NCBI RefSeq assembly: GCF_030296915.1
Contig: NZ_AP028031.1
Span: 2,361,001-2,425,000 of the forward strand
Origin: Anaerostipes hadrus ATCC 29173 = JCM 17467
Lineage (GTDB): Bacteria > Bacillota > Clostridia > Lachnospirales > Lachnospiraceae
DNA: 64,000 bases
Direction of reading: 5' to 3'
Position numbers and translations under genes: made by a program. This document shows positions 9,683 to 18,755 of this stretch, in pieces (position 1 is the first letter of the stretch; each line of letters begins with the position of its first letter). Below the pieces are notes generated by a model. That model was not told the origin of the DNA, searched no databases, and was given only the letters and a program-made list of their open reading frames with translations.

Positions 9683-10445
9683 TTACCCTCCATCGTCTAT
9701 GTTCCAGGATCTGTATCCATTTTGAACTAAAATGTACTCTACAAATTTATATCCTCTTTCTGTACTTCCTTTTCGTACTCCGCCATTGTTTTCATCGTGT
9801 CGTTTGTCTATGTAGTATCCTTTTGGACTTTTTGCATCCTCTCTGAAGAAATCACATTCCCAGATCACATCTTTCTCGATGTGTGGTTGTTTTAAATTCC
9901 TAGATGGGGGAGTATGTCTTACCCCCGTATTTCTCCATTTTTTTACGTCCTTTTTCTTTCACCAGATAGGATGCTAGTTTCCCATATTGCCCTGTGTCGT
10001 CAAGAAGCTTGATGTGAATTCGTCCACGATCCCAGCATTTTTTTATTGCTTTTGTATCAATGCTTTCAATCACCATGTGTATGTGCCTTGCGCCTTTGTC
10101 TCCTGTTTCCAACACATATACATACTTAAATTCTTTTCCAATCTTTTTATACTGTTTTCTTAGATCTCTGATCAGTTTATCCTTCTGCTTTAACATCTCT
10201 TTGTATGTGTCTGGTCTTTCGTCCTTTCTGTAAGAAAATGTTATGAACATGTCTCCTGCTTGGAAGTTGCAGTTTAATTTCCATCTTAGCTGTTCTGTTT
10301 GTCTTCTGATATTTACATTCTCCTGTTCTAGTCTACTTGGTTCTCCAGTTTTGGCTCTCTTCTCTTTTGGTTTATGCTTTCGGCTGTAGTATTTCTTTAT
10401 CTCTACTGTCTTGCCCGCGTACACTCTTCTAATCCAATATGGCAT
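9683..10445 (-). pseudogene. HUH-type replication initiator-like gene, broken by a +1 frameshift
   Basis: Upstream frame (9900-10445, 181 aa) has FITFSYRK, then the HUH motif KGARHIHMVIE (about residues 122-132) and a later YLVKEKG that supplies a Tyr-x-x-Lys motif, as in rolling-circle Rep proteins. It stops at 9900. Removing one base from the G run at 9906-9910 joins it to the frame ending at 9683, reading YSPSRNLKQPHIEKDVIWEC and about 75 further residues. The count is exactly one base over 254 codons. Either a real mutation, a slippage site or a sequencing error. Family assignment from the HUH motif is moderate. Confidence 0.75.
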
Positions 10446-12393: not shown

Positions 12394-12425
12394 ATTTTTC
12401 ACCTTCTTTCTTTTGTTTCGTTGTT

Positions 12426-12574
12426 CAGATGGATTGACACTCCGCCCGATTTATTCACATATAGATAAACGATTAATTGGGGAGGCTCCGCGTGGTTTCG
12501 GAGCTAAGGATTTCTTTTTGGATCGCAGTCAGGAATCGCCTGCATCTCGATCGGACGGAGTGTCAATCCATCTG
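12426..12574. repeat. 19-bp perfect inverted repeat enclosing nested hairpins
   Basis: Arms 12426-12444 and 12556-12574 are exactly complementary over 19 bp; CCGAT/ATCGG extends the pairing. The 111-bp interior has further stems, notably GGCTCCG...CGGAGCT (near 12483-12506). Each arm contains TTGACA. Could be a structured RNA, a hairpin origin for the nearby HUH protein, or paired operators. No terminal transposon signature or gene inside. Confidence 0.75.
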
Positions 12575-12626
12575 TTGTCTTATTTGCTATTTACTTTTTT
12601 CCTGTGTTGCCAAAACAGTATTCTCC

Positions 12627-12686
12627 TTGTCTATTTACATCTTTCTTCCTATAATGAACTTACAGGACACTGCCACGTCCAAGTAA
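12627..12686 (+). promoter_or_regulatory. cassette promoter 1 with 5' hairpin leader
   Basis: TTGTCT (12627-12632), 17 bp, TATAAT (12650-12655). A stem-loop at 12660-12686: outer TTAC/GTAA, inner GGAC...GTCC, loop region ACTGCCAC. The predicted transcription start (about 12662) falls at the hairpin foot, so the mRNA would begin with it. Same layout recurs at 13926 and 14465. Confidence 0.8.
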
Positions 12687-12707
12687 ATAAGGAAGGAGAA
12701 CACTATT

Positions 12708-13019
12708 TTGGCAACACATAAAGAGTTATCTAATTTCACGAATGAGAAGTTATCTGAATATCGAAACTTTGAGTTGAAAATTGCTAAATTAAAAGCTGAC
12801 CTTACTGTAGAACAAGCTAATATGTCAGTACCTCAATCTATAGCTGATAAGCTTGATAAGTTATATGATCAATATCCAGAAGCTCCAAAGCCAAAGAATT
12901 ACATCATTTCTGTTATTCTTGAATCTTTATTGGTAGCAATAGCAGAAAAGATTTCTGACGTTTTGATTGATCAAGCTTTAAAAATTATCACTGAATTCTT
13001 AAATAATTTTGTTTTATAA
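12708..13019 (+). CDS. small phage cassette protein, unknown
   Basis: 103 aa, TTG start behind GGAAGGAG. N-terminal helix (about residues 5-40), then a spacer with PEAPKPKN, then a hydrophobic/amphipathic helix (ISVILESLLVAIAEKISDVL) that may associate with membrane. Own promoter and own terminator (13026-13060), placed antisense to the leftward early genes: a moron-like gene. No family recognised. Confidence 0.6.
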   Translation: MATHKELSNFTNEKLSEYRNFELKIAKLKADLTVEQANMSVPQSIADKLDKLYDQYPEAPKPKNYIISVILESLLVAIAEKISDVLIDQALKIITEFLNNFVL

Positions 13020-13023
13020 TTTC

Positions 13024-13617
13024 TCAACTCTCCGATATTGCTTCGGAGAGTTCTCTTTTTATATTCTCAAAGAATTCTTCCTCAGCTCCAATTAGTCCAC
13101 TACATACAAACTTTAATATTTTTCCTTCATCCTGTACCAACACCAAATTCCCACATACATTCATTATGTTTATAATTTGCTGCACTTTATTTTTAAACTC
13201 TTCTTCTTTATTTTCTTTTTTTGCCTTCTCCTTTTCTTTGCGTATAATTTTTTTAGCTACTTTTAAACGAGCTTTATATATGCCTCTTATTAATCGTCCT
13301 GGTTCTCTTAGTTTTACCGGACATTTTGTTTTAATGTCTAATGACATTCCTTTTTCATTTTCATTCACAATAACTTCCATGCTTTTCATTCGATATAGAT
13401 TTATTGTTCCACCTACTAAATCGGTGTTATATCCTGCTTCGTCTGCAATCTTTTTTGTCGTTGTACTGCAATCACAGTTGCATGATTCTATATCTGGACA
13501 GTTCTTGCATGGTTCTGTAAAATCTGCTTTTTTCTCTTCCTTCGCCTGCATTCTTAGAGAATCCATATGCCTTAATGCACATCTGATTCCTATGTCTCTG
13601 ATCTCTTGCTCTGTCAA
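13024..13617 (-). CDS. Cys-motif phage protein, paralogue of 14210-14431
   Basis: 197 aa from a TTG behind GAAGGTGAAACA; that start aligns with the TTG of the paralogue (LTEQEIRDxGxRCALRHMDS in both). Residues 35-55 have CKNCPDIESCNCDC, a zinc-binding candidate. The remainder is helical and Lys/Glu-rich (KARLKVAKKIIRKEKEKAKK). The terminator stem of the convergent cassette gene lies within its last codons. Function unknown. Confidence 0.6.
   Translation of the reverse strand: MTEQEIRDIGIRCALRHMDSLRMQAKEEKKADFTEPCKNCPDIESCNCDCSTTTKKIADEAGYNTDLVGGTINLYRMKSMEVIVNENEKGMSLDIKTKCPVKLREPGRLIRGIYKARLKVAKKIIRKEKEKAKKENKEEEFKNKVQQIINIMNVCGNLVLVQDEGKILKFVCSGLIGAEEEFFENIKRELSEAISES
13026..13060 (+). terminator. 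terminator of cassette 1
   Basis: Stem AACTCTCCGA/TCGGAGAGTT, 7-nt loop, then CTCTTTTT. It starts 7 bp after the stop of the 103-aa gene and overlaps the 3' end of the opposing gene. Confidence 0.88.
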
Positions 13618-13621
13618 TGTT

Positions 13622-13891
13622 TCACCTTCTTTCCTGGTTAAGATTACGTTGAAATTTCTCTGGCAGATTACTTGCATTCAATCCCATATCCAAGCCAGTA
13701 ATCTGTTGGAGTTTGTTCATAATCACGTCATAATGCATTTTCCCATTTTCATTTTCAAAAGACTTTTCGCATTCTTTCCAGTATTTACAATATTGGCATC
13801 CATAAAATATCCATCCGCCTGCAAATACAGAACTTTGAATAATTCTTGCAATGCAATAAATGTCCTTTTCTGTTAGTTCTGTTTTTTCTAT
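13622..13891 (-). CDS. 89-codon frame without a standard start codon
   Basis: Open from an ATA at 13891 to TGA at 13622; a stop lies just upstream and no in-frame ATG, GTG or TTG occurs in the first half. A strong AAAGGTGAAAGG site precedes the ATA. The product would read LTEKDIYCIARIIQSS then YGCQYCKYWKEC, Cys-rich like its neighbour, and the stop sits 4 bp before the next gene's TTG. Coupling and coding quality argue that it is translated, perhaps from ATA. Function unknown. Confidence 0.5.
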   Translation of the reverse strand: MEKTELTEKDIYCIARIIQSSVFAGGWIFYGCQYCKYWKECEKSFENENGKMHYDVIMNKLQQITGLDMGLNASNLPEKFQRNLNQERR

Positions 13892-13925
13892 TTCCTTTCA
13901 CCTTTCTTTCCTGCTGTTCGTTATC

Positions 13926-13985
13926 TTGTTTAATTACATCCTTTTCCGTATAATTAATTTACAGGGTGCTGTCACACCCAAGTAA
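13926..13985 (+). promoter_or_regulatory. cassette promoter 2 with 5' hairpin leader
   Basis: TTGTTT (13926-13931), 17 bp, TATAAT (13949-13954); hairpin 13959-13985 with outer TTAC/GTAA, inner GGGTG/CACCC and loop CTGTCA. Spacing is identical to the other two copies; stem bases differ but still pair. Confidence 0.85.
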
Positions 13986-14004
13986 TTACGGAAGGAGGTT
14001 CATT

Positions 14005-14202
14005 ATGTGTGAATTAAAAACAAAACATTTTAAAGCAGTCTGTCCTTACACTAATTCAGAAATGGAAATTTCCATTTTGTGTCAAAGAATTCATAAGACA
14101 CAAACATTAAACAAACATTATAAAAAAATGGATTTTTCATGTCCTAAAATCTCTGAATGTACTTATGGAAAAAGAAATTGTCCACTTTTCCAGTCCGCTT
14201 AA
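14005..14202 (+). CDS. Cys-rich 65-aa phage cassette protein
   Basis: Starts MCELKTKHFKAVCPYTNSEM behind GGAAGGAGGTTCATT. Six cysteines (about residues 2, 13, 26, 46, 52, 59) suggest zinc binding. Second of three independent rightward cassettes. Unknown function; position and autonomy suit a moron gene expressed in the lysogen. Confidence 0.6.
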   Translation: MCELKTKHFKAVCPYTNSEMEISILCQRIHKTQTLNKHYKKMDFSCPKISECTYGKRNCPLFQSA

Positions 14203-14209
14203 GTACTAT

Positions 14210-14431
14210 TTATGGCACCGATTTATTCGGTGCTTTTTTGATGTATCCAGATTCTTCTCTATTTAGTCTTGTAGTCTTTGACCAATCAGCTCCACAAGTT
14301 TCTAGTTCTGGACAATTCTCGCATGGTTCTATAAATTCTGCCATTCTTTTTTCTGCTGCCTGTATTCTCAGAGAATCCATATGTCTTAATGCACATCGGA
14401 CTCCCATGTCCCTGATCTCTTGTTCTGTCAA
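14210..14431 (-). CDS. short paralogue of the 13024-13617 protein
   Basis: 73 aa, TTG start behind AAAGGAAGGTGAAGTA. Its first 45 residues match the larger paralogue (TEQEIRDMGVRCALRHMDSL; CENCPELETC) and then diverge and stop. Either a truncated duplicate or a stand-alone zinc-binding domain. The terminator of the convergent Cys-rich gene lies in its 3' end. Confidence 0.6.
   Translation of the reverse strand: MTEQEIRDMGVRCALRHMDSLRIQAAEKRMAEFIEPCENCPELETCGADWSKTTRLNREESGYIKKAPNKSVP
14215..14239 (+). terminator. terminator of cassette 2
   Basis: GCACCG, 7-nt loop, CGGTGC, TTTTTT; 12 bp after the stop of the Cys-rich gene. Confidence 0.88.
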
Positions 14432-14464
14432 TACTTCACCTTCCTTTCCTGTTGCTTCGTTATC

Positions 14465-14524
14465 TTGTTTAATTACATCCTTTTCCGTATAATTGACTTA
14501 CAGGGAACTGCCATTCCCAAGTCT
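14465..14524 (+). promoter_or_regulatory. cassette promoter 3 with 5' hairpin leader
   Basis: TTGTTT (14465-14470), 17 bp, TATAAT (14488-14493); hairpin 14498-14524 with inner GGGAA/TTCCC and loop CTGCCA. The bases upstream, including the RBS region of the opposing gene, are nearly identical to copy 2, showing recent duplication. Confidence 0.85.
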
Positions 14525-14541
14525 TACGAAAGGAGTTTTTT

Positions 14542-14775
14542 ATGAAACGTTCTGAATTAAATTCAATTTGTGCAGAAATACAAAAACGTCAATTAATTGA
14601 ATTAAAAGCTGATTTTTTAGAAATGTCTAAGTTGTCCCATGATGAATCATCACATTTTGAAGATTTCTTTGCAGCTCTTATGGCAAATTCTCTTCCTATT
14701 CTTTCTAAATTATCTGTTCAATGCACTATTGACACATTAGAAAATCTAGGTCTTATTAAGATTGAAGATGATTAA
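14542..14775 (+). CDS. small phage cassette protein, unknown
   Basis: 77 aa behind GAAAGGAGTTTTTT. Helical, acidic C-terminus (LIKIEDD); no cysteine motif beyond C10 and C61 region. Third rightward cassette. Its end overlaps the end of the opposing 54-aa gene by 20 bp. Function unknown. Confidence 0.6.
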   Translation: MKRSELNSICAEIQKRQLIELKADFLEMSKLSHDESSHFEDFFAALMANSLPILSKLSVQCTIDTLENLGLIKIEDD

Positions 14776-14920
14776 TTTGGTTTATTATTTTTTCACAAAT
14801 TGTATCAACATCATTTTTGCTAGTTTGTTTTTTGTTGATCCATTGTCTAAAACAAGCTAGCGCTAAAATAACTGTGCTTATTAAAATGAGTACAGTTATT
14901 TTAGTATCCTTAAATTTCAT
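14756..14920 (-). CDS. 54-aa single-pass membrane protein
   Basis: Starts MKFKDTKITVLILISTVILA at an ATG behind AAAGGAGATGAGAAAGA; one transmembrane segment (about residues 7-24), then a basic, hydrophilic tail. It is the first leftward gene after the consensus promoter at 14994-15022. The TM coding region forms a 13-bp inverted repeat (about 14864-14908). Function unknown; might be a lysis- or exclusion-type peptide. Confidence 0.65.
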   Translation of the reverse strand: MKFKDTKITVLILISTVILALACFRQWINKKQTSKNDVDTICEKIINQINHLQS

Positions 14921-14993: not shown

Positions 14994-15022
14994 ATTATAT
15001 GTCACGTAGTTGCATTTGTCAA
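14994..15022 (-). promoter_or_regulatory. consensus leftward promoter with operator-like repeats
   Basis: TTGACA (15017-15022), 17 bp, TATAAT (14994-14999), on the minus strand: a perfect sigma-A promoter. GTTGCA occurs at 14989 and 15010 within it. Likely the main early promoter of the phage (inference). Confidence 0.88.
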
Positions 15023-15118: not shown

Positions 15119-15508
15119 ATGAATAATCGTATTAAATTTCTTAGAAAATCTTTAAATCTAACACAACAAGAATTCGCTGACAAATTAAACATAAAACGTG
15201 GAGCTGTATCTAATTATGAGATTGGTCGAAACCAACCGATAGATGCCGTGATTTCTTTAATATGCAGAGAATTTAATGTAAACGAGAATTGGCTTAGATC
15301 TGGAGAAGGAGAAATGTTCCTTCCGGTAGAAGATGAAGTTGGAGAAGTTGTTTCTAAATTGGTCGATGAATTGAACCCTTTTTATGACATGATTATTGAT
15401 ATCATGCACACTTTTAACAATTTAGATGATAAAGGTCAGGAAATTATTTGTAATTTCACGTCAGATCTTGTTGATAGAATGGCAAAAAGGAATAAACAAG
15501 ACAATTAA
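15119..15508 (+). CDS. XRE-family prophage repressor candidate
   Basis: 129 aa. N-terminal HTH RIKFLRKSLNLTQQEFADKL with RGAVSNYEIGRNQPID (residues 3-45), then WLRSGEGEMF, the typical junction of CI-like Firmicutes repressors, and a helical C-terminal oligomerisation region. No S24 peptidase, so induction would not be by self-cleavage. Own promoter, next to a divergent consensus promoter with palindromic sites: a genetic-switch arrangement. Confidence 0.85.
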   Translation: MNNRIKFLRKSLNLTQQEFADKLNIKRGAVSNYEIGRNQPIDAVISLICREFNVNENWLRSGEGEMFLPVEDEVGEVVSKLVDELNPFYDMIIDIMHTFNNLDDKGQEIICNFTSDLVDRMAKRNKQDN

Positions 15509-17291: not shown

Positions 17292-18755
17292 ATGAAAAAA
17301 ATTGCAGCTGCTTATATAAGAGTCAGCACGCATATGCAAGAAGAGCTGTCTCCTGATGCACAACTTCGATGCATTAGAGTCTGGGGAGATGCACATGGTT
17401 ATTATGTACCAGACGAATATGTTTTTATCGATAATGGAATTTCTGGAAGAAAAGCAAAAAAGCGTCATGATTTCTTGCGAATGATCGGATTGGCAAAAAC
17501 GAAGCCTGCTTCTCCTTTTGAAGCAATACTTCTTTGGAAATTTAATCGTTTTGCACGAAACCAAGAAGAAAGCATTGTTTATAAATCTATGTTACGCAAA
17601 AAATGCAATGTTGATGTAATCAGTACTACTCAGCAAACAACAAAAGACATTTATGGAGATCTTATTGAGCGCATCATCGAATGGACTGATGAATTTTATT
17701 CTATCCAGTTAGGGGAAGACGTTTTTCGTGGTATGACAGAAAACGCCCTTCGCGGAAATTTCCAGGCATCTCCGGCTTTTGGATACAAGGTAGAAAAAGG
17801 ACTAGGACTAGTCATTGTTGAAGATCAGGCAAATATCGTTCGCATGATTTTTAATTTATATGCCAATACTAGGATGGGATTTTATGAGATCGCTCGTCAT
17901 TTGAATCGCTTAGGCTACAAAACCAAGAAAGGTGGAGCTTTTGAGGCTCGCGCAATTAGGTATATTATCCAAAATCCAATCTATAAAGGATACCTTAGAT
18001 GGAATTATGCAAATGGTACTACACGTGTTGTTAATGATGAAAGCGAATGGATTATTGTAAAATCTCCACTAGTTCCTATAATTGTGTCTGAAGAACTTTG
18101 GGATCGGGCAAACGAACGTTTAAAAAATGAGTATCGTCCTAAAAACGGAAAACCTGTAACAAAGCATCGACATTGGCTGTCCGGGCTTGTTAAGTGTTCT
18201 TCCTGCGGTGCTTCTCTTTCTACGTCTGTGCAATACCGTCATGATCGCACCTACATTAATTTTCAGTGCTACAAATACCTTAAAGGAAAATGCATGGTTT
18301 CTCATGGAATTTCTGAAAAGAAGCTTGTTCCATTGGTTTTAAATGTCTTGAAAGAAGATATGAGTAAATCTTACATAGAGTGCGAACGTATAGAAAAGGT
18401 TGTTGAAAATCAACAGGATATCCTGGATGTTCAGTTGAAACGTTTGGCTACCAGAGAAACACGAATTAAAGAAGCATATCTGAATGGTATTGATTCTTTG
18501 GCAGAATATAAGGCTAACAAGGAAGAAATTCAAAAAGAACGTGAGTTTCTTCTTCAGCAATCACAGGATCATAACAAAACGGAAAATGAATCTAATGAAC
18601 TTCCCAACAAAATTCGTGGTGTTTATGATATACTGGTATCTGATCAATGCAGTAAGGATGAAAAGCAAGCTGCAATCCGTTCGATCGTGAAAAAAATTGT
18701 ATTTGACAAAGAGAATAAAACATTAGATTTTCACTATTACATAAAAGAAGATTAG
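17292..18755 (+). CDS. large serine recombinase (phage integrase)
   Basis: 487 aa. Resolvase domain (residues 1-150) with YIRVSTHMQEE holding catalytic Ser12 and the LWKFNRFARN region; recombinase domain (about 165-260, AFGYKVEKG ... IIQNPIYKGYLRW); zinc ribbon CSSCG...CYKYLKGKC (about 302-335); coiled coil (about 370-430). It is the last rightward gene before the host junction, as expected for attP next to int. No recombination directionality factor is identifiable. RBS AAAAAGGAAAAGGTG. Confidence 0.95.
   Translation: MKKIAAAYIRVSTHMQEELSPDAQLRCIRVWGDAHGYYVPDEYVFIDNGISGRKAKKRHDFLRMIGLAKTKPASPFEAILLWKFNRFARNQEESIVYKSMLRKKCNVDVISTTQQTTKDIYGDLIERIIEWTDEFYSIQLGEDVFRGMTENALRGNFQASPAFGYKVEKGLGLVIVEDQANIVRMIFNLYANTRMGFYEIARHLNRLGYKTKKGGAFEARAIRYIIQNPIYKGYLRWNYANGTTRVVNDESEWIIVKSPLVPIIVSEELWDRANERLKNEYRPKNGKPVTKHRHWLSGLVKCSSCGASLSTSVQYRHDRTYINFQCYKYLKGKCMVSHGISEKKLVPLVLNVLKEDMSKSYIECERIEKVVENQQDILDVQLKRLATRETRIKEAYLNGIDSLAEYKANKEEIQKEREFLLQQSQDHNKTENESNELPNKIRGVYDILVSDQCSKDEKQAAIRSIVKKIVFDKENKTLDFHYYIKED

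Follow-up and report, generated by a model that had tools for sequence, protein, structure and literature searches.

A promoter-bound leader with a predicted 5'-terminal hairpin ahead of small genes in phages of the Lachnospiraceae

Three small gene cassettes in a prophage of Anaerostipes hadrus ATCC 29173 = JCM 17467 share a leader that recurs in many other phages. They lie in a 64,000-nucleotide stretch of DNA (contig NZ_AP028031.1, positions 2,361,001 to 2,425,000; hereafter called the window, with positions counted from its first letter). At 12627, 13926 and 14465, a sigma-A-type promoter-like site with a 17-bp spacer is followed, 6 nt past the -10 box, by a hairpin of the form ACA-stem-CTGYCA-stem-AAGT, and then by a Shine-Dalgarno (SD) site and a short open reading frame (ORF). 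This combination of promoter and hairpin, here called the element, is widespread in the Lachnospiraceae, including named cultured phages, and its stem is, judging from the pairing in its relatives, near certain to be real. On balance, though with no great confidence, we read the leaders as portable phage expression modules, in which a hairpin that buries the 5' end serves small accessory genes that are switched on in lysogeny.

The initial annotation of the window had described one layout at the three places, and the promoter, the spacing, the hairpin at the predicted RNA start and the ribosome-binding site are indeed all present (Table 1). The small genes of 103, 65 and 77 aa that it reported are preceded by AGGAG-type sites (GGAAGGAG, GGAAGGAGG and GAAAGGAG), and two cassettes end, as stated there, in a terminator-like site; none is listed by the scan after cassette 3. 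The hairpin sequence it gave stands for the stems and the loop but not in every letter: cassette 3 has AAGTCTTA in place of AAGTAA, and its outer stem pairs in another way, whilst the top pair of the cassette 1 stem is an A.C mismatch. The motif has exactly three matches in the window versus 0.01 expected from shuffles, and a covariance model finds only these three copies at E <=1 in the whole 2.8-Mb host genome (150 of 779 first-look candidates scored). Part of cassettes 2 and 3 stems from a local duplication (67 nt at 90% identity, adjoining a 215-nt repeat at 74%), so there is little independent covariation within the window. Since, in addition, the single folds are unremarkable, the window alone is no proof of an RNA element, and the proof of a structured element comes from the relatives.

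Because the pattern searches that retrieved these relatives fix some letters, the pairing test was restricted to the free positions. Among 143 unique matches in genomes, 136 pair at all three free inner pairs, five at two and two at none; among 98 viral matches, these numbers are 76 at three, 11 at two, nine at one and two at none. By chance, 5% would pair at all three in either set. Without a pairing filter, 640 of 684 free cells are paired in the 228 unique matches of both sets, versus 370.9 in column shuffles, and 448 of 489 in 163 non-redundant matches, versus 249.9 (standard deviation 9.0, maximum 277). In the genome, viral and unfiltered sets alike, the stem is thus kept up by selection, as expected of a 5'-terminal stabiliser. 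In the viral set, for which the pattern did not include the -10 box, a -10 box with at least five of six letters stands at the fixed place in 63 of the 76 fully paired matches versus 8 of the 22 others. An alignment of 49 diverse copies (A2) and the covariance model R1 were built from the three copies of the window and from 46 of 48 chosen full-pairing copies, with L247 and the chance match L241 excluded. The free pairs of A2 changed on both sides 19, 26 and 27 times, and its covariation score is 0.408 versus 0.125 in shuffles and no more than 0.105 when slid, a signal that is overstated because nearly all its copies were prefiltered for full pairing.

The letters that the patterns fix can be judged from 48 copies that were found by the model outside the patterns. 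They remained from 59 hand-picked R1 matches, mostly below 58 bits, after removal of pattern matches and duplicates and, being picked by model score, lean to what the model accepts. With the first hairpin base as +1, the pair +1/+23 is AU in 44 of them, GU in three and GC in one, and +2/+22 is paired in 41. The loop-closing position is C.A in 26, U.G in 11 and C-G in three, and the first hairpin base, which all patterns fix as A, remains so in 44 and is G in the other four.

The distance between promoter and hairpin is almost invariant. Of 275 perfect-stem hairpins, 268 stand 6 nt from the -10 box and seven lack a -10 box that the script recognised; when only viral loci are counted, where the pattern did not fix the gap, it is 6 nt in 90 of 95. 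Since the spacing from the -10 box is exactly 6 nt, the A of ACA is the predicted first base of the RNA, and this base should itself be paired. The base at -1 is a T in 90% of 199 copies. The +1/+23 and +2/+22 pairs are predicted to form across an A x RA internal loop, and the evidence for the end pair +1/+23 is its conserved pairing, not thermodynamics. Pyrimidines make up 86% of the promoter spacer in 146 elements, versus 58% at 347 other promoter-like sites in these loci. Directly 3' of the hairpin, positions 27-36 of 199 copies are A/G-rich and lack the T run of an intrinsic attenuator or terminator. A reading of UACAGG as a CsrA site was dropped because GGA is rare, with A after GG in 5% of the 199 copies.

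How far the element extends depends on the search. A fixed pattern with at most two mismatches matches in 38 of 299 genomes of the family, about ten of which, including that of A. hadrus, hold the same hairpin by eye, several in multiple copies. When genome contigs were scanned and the inner six stem letters left free, 115 stretches matched, many with titles naming Lachnospiraceae or genera of this family and others labelled Clostridia, Eubacteriales or bacterium, with one Bacteroidales and one Bacilli; the viral scan, with the pattern lacking the -10 box, gave 104. There are 226 unique perfect-stem copies in 176 loci, and relaxing the loop letters whilst requiring a -10 box yields 278 distinct copies, 264 of which have an SD site. 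Contig L086 alone has seven copies. Model R1 matches 50 of 397 family genomes at E <=0.01, with about four chance matches expected, and 4 of 291 genomes in a sample of the class; two of these four lie outside the family, one with a weak match (36.7 bits). In a sample of the phylum, 5 of 398 genomes match at E 0.001, including that of A. hadrus; two of the other four (L314 and L315) also fit the strict pattern. The claim of a conserved element had been staked in the initial annotation on the existence of further copies with preserved pairing, and it survived that test. Its stems, said to differ yet pair, do so with covariation in more than 200 copies, and its proposal of a conserved structured 5' leader common to unrelated phage genes is strongly supported by the covariation, the near-invariant -10 spacing and the lack of an Rfam match at gathering score.

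The same layout is seen in rarer forms whose stems differ: six copies of type II, and four convincing ones of five listed of type III. Other hairpin types (ACC..GGAATA and AT[C/T]AGNN-loop-NNCT..AAAT) are seen at L312 2563, L229 928, L053 1708 and L122 1743 and in L177, L054, L136, L138 and L148. Because these stand at the same 6-nt distance from the -10 box, the element belongs to a broader group of hairpins at start sites. In three copies, the apical part is much longer (68-nt model matches at L111 3021-3088, L147 6418-6485 and L175 2895-2962).

Behind 212 of the 226 copies lies an ORF with an SD-like site and a start 19-25 nt 3' of the hairpin (5th-95th percentile). All but four of these ORFs (208) are closed, with a median length of 72 aa, and the 212 fall into 112 clusters. 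The cassette 2 protein has clear relatives behind other elements (single-sequence E down to 1e-10; a profile gives 1e-25, but contains its own copy), and the proteins of cassettes 1 and 3 have weak ones (E 1e-5 and 3e-4). The products tested numbered 108, i.e., 105 of the 109 listed cluster representatives and the three window proteins. Few match Pfam; the 14 families include Abi_alpha, YozE, KTSC, DUF2513, YjcQ and zinc ribbons, and the Abi_alpha match (9.7e-37) concerns one product of the 108 (L131). Four PADLOC models match, three of which are PDC-S47, a candidate defence protein, and two of the 25 PHROG families listed, of 34, have a function. A simple scan found a terminator-like site in 31 of 202 cassettes.

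Named phages allow a closer look at these genes. A short element query returned ten phage records, i.e., three phages of Ruminococcus gnavus, two unannotated faecal phages and five apparent chance matches, and no matches among plasmid records. A second short query found six R. gnavus phages and one Acetoanaerobium phage; R1 scores six of these seven at 55.7-67.9 bits (five R. gnavus phages and the Acetoanaerobium phage). Each of the seven has its cassette on the plus strand, flanked by genes on the minus strand, and six of the seven stretches reach a plus-strand helix-turn-helix (HTH) regulator or repressor after the cassette, whilst the short phiRgIBDN1 stretch stops before it. The leaders of phiRg519T2 and phiRgPS_6 are 99% identical over 100 nt, and their cassette proteins, of 74 and 118 aa, do not align. 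In phiRM10, a gene that is 75% identical to that of phiRg507T2_2 stands behind a hairpin that differs in sequence but occupies the same place. The Acetoanaerobium phage has a KTSC gene, and KTSC is also element-driven in Lachnospiraceae. Phages phiRg507T2_2 and phiRg507T2_3 have the same cassette gene. In the superinfection table of the paper on these phages, the phiRg507T2_3 lysogen excluded phiRg519T2 and the phiRg507T2_2 lysogen did not (PMC10072058); as the two share the gene and differ in exclusion, the idea that the cassette is the deciding exclusion factor is unsupported by that table.

The position of the cassettes is as characteristic as their leader. In 189 copies with neighbours on both sides, both neighbours are on the opposite strand in 123, the upstream one only in 37, the downstream one only in 22 and neither in seven. 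Measured over the whole locus, the coding majority is opposite to the element for 139 copies and on the same strand for 66. A single-linkage cluster of HTH proteins (representative HTH_3 + Peptidase_S24) occurs in 123 of 161 loci, and its members within 6 kb are on the strand of the nearest element in 134 cases and opposite in 46. Two integrase families (Resolvase, and Phage_integrase, the latter below the Pfam cut-off; 24 and 20 members counted) are also on the element's strand. Opposite to it are a small HTH family (26 members, with weak Cro/DUF739 matches) and a Rep family (36 members, representative REP_ORF2-G2P) that is present in 37 of the 161 loci. The loci thus resemble the immunity regions of phages, and most cassettes lie on what would be the lysogeny strand.

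The following mechanism would account for these features. The module joins a sigma-A promoter, at a constant distance, to a predicted 5'-terminal RNA hairpin and a strong SD site; temperate phages, mostly of Lachnospiraceae, would employ it for small accessory genes that most often lie in the immunity region and against the early lytic genes. If the RNA starts at the A of ACA, +1 would pair with +23 and +2 with +22, so that the 5' end would be buried; this would shield the mRNA from RppH and RNase J, in the way proposed for the aprE and ompA leaders, whilst the SD site just downstream would stay more open. In Firmicutes, decay that depends on the 5' end is resisted by an mRNA whose first base is paired. 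According to the account of the Bacillus subtilis enzyme in PMC3997798, RppH requires a G at position 2 and no fewer than two unpaired bases at the 5' end. With its predicted paired 5' end and a C at +2, the element offers neither. The cassettes would be on in the prophage and be switched off upon induction by antisense lytic transcription. Both the conservation of the loop (C-YGSC-A or U-NNNN-G) and the A x RA internal loop hint that the hairpin is recognised as well, most likely by a host protein.

Several observations weigh against this reading. A conserved loop is not needed by a plain end-protector, and we infer expression in lysogeny from strand and place, with 66 of 205 copies in loci where most coding shares their strand. 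Nearest-neighbour folding gives the +1/+23 pair a probability of 0.16, and the single folds in the window are not better than shuffles (z 0.21, -0.53 and -0.66). Two of five measures in A2 do not exceed shuffles (both-side-change pairs 6 versus 6.1; pair types 23 versus 20.7), the outermost possible pairs (columns 13-15 with 41-43, beyond -1) form in only 15, 28 and 23 of the 48 pattern-breaking copies, and phiRM10 matches R1 weakly (24.1 bits). An attempt to tell the folding strand from G.U and A.C at free stem positions failed, with 18 versus 12. The module, the covariation, the spacing, the distribution, the exchange of genes behind the module and the strand are read directly from the sequences; the hairpin itself may act on stability, translation or partner binding.

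End protection explains the stem and the spacing but not the loops, and therefore a trans-acting partner has to be considered. Possibly, the hairpin is mainly the binding site of a host or phage RNA-binding protein or of an RNA that would raise or lower the translation of all cassettes jointly, with recognition through the letters of the loop and of the A x RA internal loop. The bias at the loop-closing position described above, the nearly always kept A and RA letters and the placement of one element ahead of 112 protein clusters are consistent with such a factor, as this conservation exceeds the needs of a plain stem. However, no partner gene was identified, the commonest neighbour is the HTH regulator, a DNA binder, and copies with other loops (types II and III, and phiRM10) keep the layout. 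In a broader version, which we likewise regard as tentative, the element would represent a regulatory RNA family of Clostridia phages: a host factor or the antisense lytic RNA would read the 5' hairpin and thereby coordinate swappable small prophage genes, encoding candidate exclusion and host-control proteins, as a lysogeny regulon that is held by RNA and not by operators. The antisense RNA might also act directly through kissing loops, if cassette and lytic mRNAs with complementary hairpins paired, silencing the cassettes on induction or damping the lytic mRNA in lysogeny. As both neighbours are opposite in 123 of 189 copies, a transcript crossing them would carry the complement of the hairpin, and the loops are GC-rich; but every loop complements its own antisense, which leaves the conservation of the loop across phages unexplained. 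We consider this idea improbable.

Slightly more doubtful still is a role of the pyrimidine-rich spacer in sequestering the SD site in readthrough RNA, such that only RNA from the cassette's own promoter would be translated. The composition of the spacer agrees with it, and in 112 copies the mean unpaired probability of the SD site is 0.53 in own versus 0.23 in readthrough RNA; however, shuffled upstream sequence of the same composition also gives 0.23 (p 0.72), and in 207 copies the spacer-SD duplex is little stronger for cognate (-8.87 kcal/mol) than for shuffled (-8.44) or non-cognate spacers (-8.40; p 0.03 and 0.02). Sequestration by the spacer was thus rejected as mostly a composition effect. 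Least probable in our view is that the element acts as DNA, either as a dyad operator or as a single-stranded hairpin, e.g., a single-strand promoter. The near balance of G.U and A.C means that RNA is not proven as the folding strand, the window's phage encodes a rolling-circle-type Rep, and the Rep family is present in 37 of the 161 loci. But the stem letters change while the pairing holds, and the conserved letters ACAGG, CYGSCA and CCRAGT are asymmetric, unlike an operator for a dimer. In Frpo-type promoters, -35 and -10 lie within a duplex formed by the single strand. By inspection, the -10 box of the element has no complementary arm, which a single-strand promoter would need: the arms of a 36-nt repeat at cassette 1 cover the -35 and not the -10, and no such repeat is listed for cassettes 2 and 3.

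In A. hadrus, the cassette region is a prophage. The window encodes an HNH protein, a methyltransferase, a single-stranded-DNA-binding protein, ParA/ParB, the rolling-circle-type Rep and an integrase. The minus strand upstream of the window carries genes for both terminase subunits and for portal, major head, tail sheath, tape-measure, tail and baseplate proteins; all eight proteins scanned gave matches. The three plus-strand cassettes sit between, and against, minus-strand ORFs. A DNA similarity search with 12590-14800 found nothing among phage and plasmid records.

Table 1. Features of the cassette region in the window.
Feature	Position	Strand	Remark
Cassette 1 promoter, TTGTCT-17-TATAAT, pyrimidine-rich spacer	12627..12655	+	
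Cassette 1 5'-terminal hairpin, ACA-GGACA-CTGCCA-CGTCC-AAGT	12662..12684	+	R1 60.8 bits; copy belongs to model
Cassette 1 predicted RNA start	12662	+	
Cassette 1 Shine-Dalgarno site, GGAAGGAG	12691..12698	+	
Cassette 1 gene, 103 aa, TTG start	12708..13019	+	Weak relatives behind elements in L188, L192
Intrinsic-terminator-like site 3' of cassette 1	13026..13052	+	Terminator scan
Cassette 2 promoter, TTGTTT-17-TATAAT	13926..13954	+	
Cassette 2 5'-terminal hairpin, ACA-GGGTG-CTGTCA-CACCC-AAGT	13961..13983	+	R1 55.5 bits; copy belongs to model
Cassette 2 Shine-Dalgarno site, GGAAGGAGG	13990..13998	+	
Cassette 2 gene, 65 aa, Cys-rich	14005..14202	+	In largest family of element-driven proteins
Intrinsic-terminator-like site 3' of cassette 2	14214..14234	+	Terminator scan
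Cassette 3 promoter, TTGTTT-17-TATAAT	14465..14493	+	
Cassette 3 5'-terminal hairpin, ACA-GGGAA-CTGCCA-TTCCC-AAGT	14500..14522	+	R1 55.3 bits; copy belongs to model
Cassette 3 Shine-Dalgarno site, GAAAGGAG	14528..14535	+	
Cassette 3 gene, 77 aa	14542..14775	+	Weak relative behind element in L172
Consensus promoter-like site, TTGACA-17-TATAAT	14994..15022	-	Reads into opposite (early lytic) genes
HTH (XRE) regulator, likely repressor	15119..15508	+	PF01381 7e-12; strand of cassettes
Integrase (serine recombinase)	17292..18755	+	phrog_95; strand of cassettes

The hairpin of cassette 1 is flanked by a 36-nt inverted repeat (86%; 12603-12638 and 12683-12718) that extends into the first codons of the gene, and locus L006 is nearly identical to the window at this repeat. 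When L006 at about 1990-1630 (minus strand) is compared with window 12655-13019, the leader is nearly identical and, by inspection, the cassette 1 protein differs after about 11 residues, as if the gene body had been exchanged. The minus-strand ORFs between the cassettes (13024-13677 and 14210-14431) are duplicates of one family (the 215-nt repeat at 74%), of which L006 seems to hold more copies. Further upstream, at 12426-12574, a 25-nt inverted repeat (96%) surrounds about 100 nt with further hairpins. As single-stranded DNA, this segment folds far better than shuffles (z -6.0); an arm of it is common to L006, and it lies near the rolling-circle-type Rep gene (9900-10445). It may be a single-strand origin. 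Rfam matches to microRNA families at 12425-12723 are far below gathering score and look like artefacts of the long inverted repeats at this place.

The element provides a sequence tag by which at least 200 unstudied small genes of phages of gut bacteria can be grouped into a single class with a common leader, and it suggests that temperate phages may keep a standard expression module and exchange the genes behind it. Its presence in cultured R. gnavus phages makes start sites, stability and gene function testable at present. The element could also be used as a part for gene expression in Lachnospiraceae.

Among known systems, the E. coli ompA leader is a 5'-terminal stabiliser stem-loop, and stabilisers of the aprE and ompA/papA type are single leaders of single genes. 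The element resembles the aprE leader of B. subtilis and SD-type stabilisers (STAB-SD), treated in PMC3997798, and likewise ompA/papA of E. coli, in having a stem-loop at the 5' end followed by a strong purine-rich SD site, and, like them, would be expected to block 5'-end-dependent decay. Unlike the aprE and ompA leaders, it is a recurring module, with a conserved loop, an internal loop and a conserved -10 spacing, ahead of 112 protein clusters. In this respect, its nearest analogue is the SAS/ESAS of cluster K mycobacteriophages, which recur, with inverted repeats, before many unrelated small genes in the non-structural half of the genome; in the description of ESAS given there, however, the repeats do not generally support RNA pairing, and DNA-binding sites are suggested (PMC3203893). 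In contrast, the pairing of the element is supported by covariation and its hairpin stands at the predicted RNA start; the hosts differ as well, and the 13-bp SAS GGGATAGGAGCCC, which in SAS/ESAS lies at start codons, has no exact match in 316 loci. Phage morons are gene cassettes with their own promoter and terminator that are expressed in lysogeny. Like these, the cassettes, with their promoter-like sites, would be autonomous small-gene units, often against the direction of their neighbours, and one of 108 products is Abi_alpha; a terminator-like site was found in the simple scan in only 31 of 202 cassettes, and morons are not known to have a structured promoter-leader in common across phages. 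As in cis-regulatory families of Rfam, a conserved structured leader stands ahead of genes, but neither in the window region nor in four loci with multiple copies does any family of Rfam 15 reach gathering score at the element, all matches being sub-threshold, and a full-text search of the open-access literature found no description. The statement in the initial annotation that no element of this form had been described agrees with both results. Thus, the element appears to be undescribed: a 5'-terminal structured leader like those of the known stabilisers, but portable, bound to its promoter and spread over the phages of one bacterial family.

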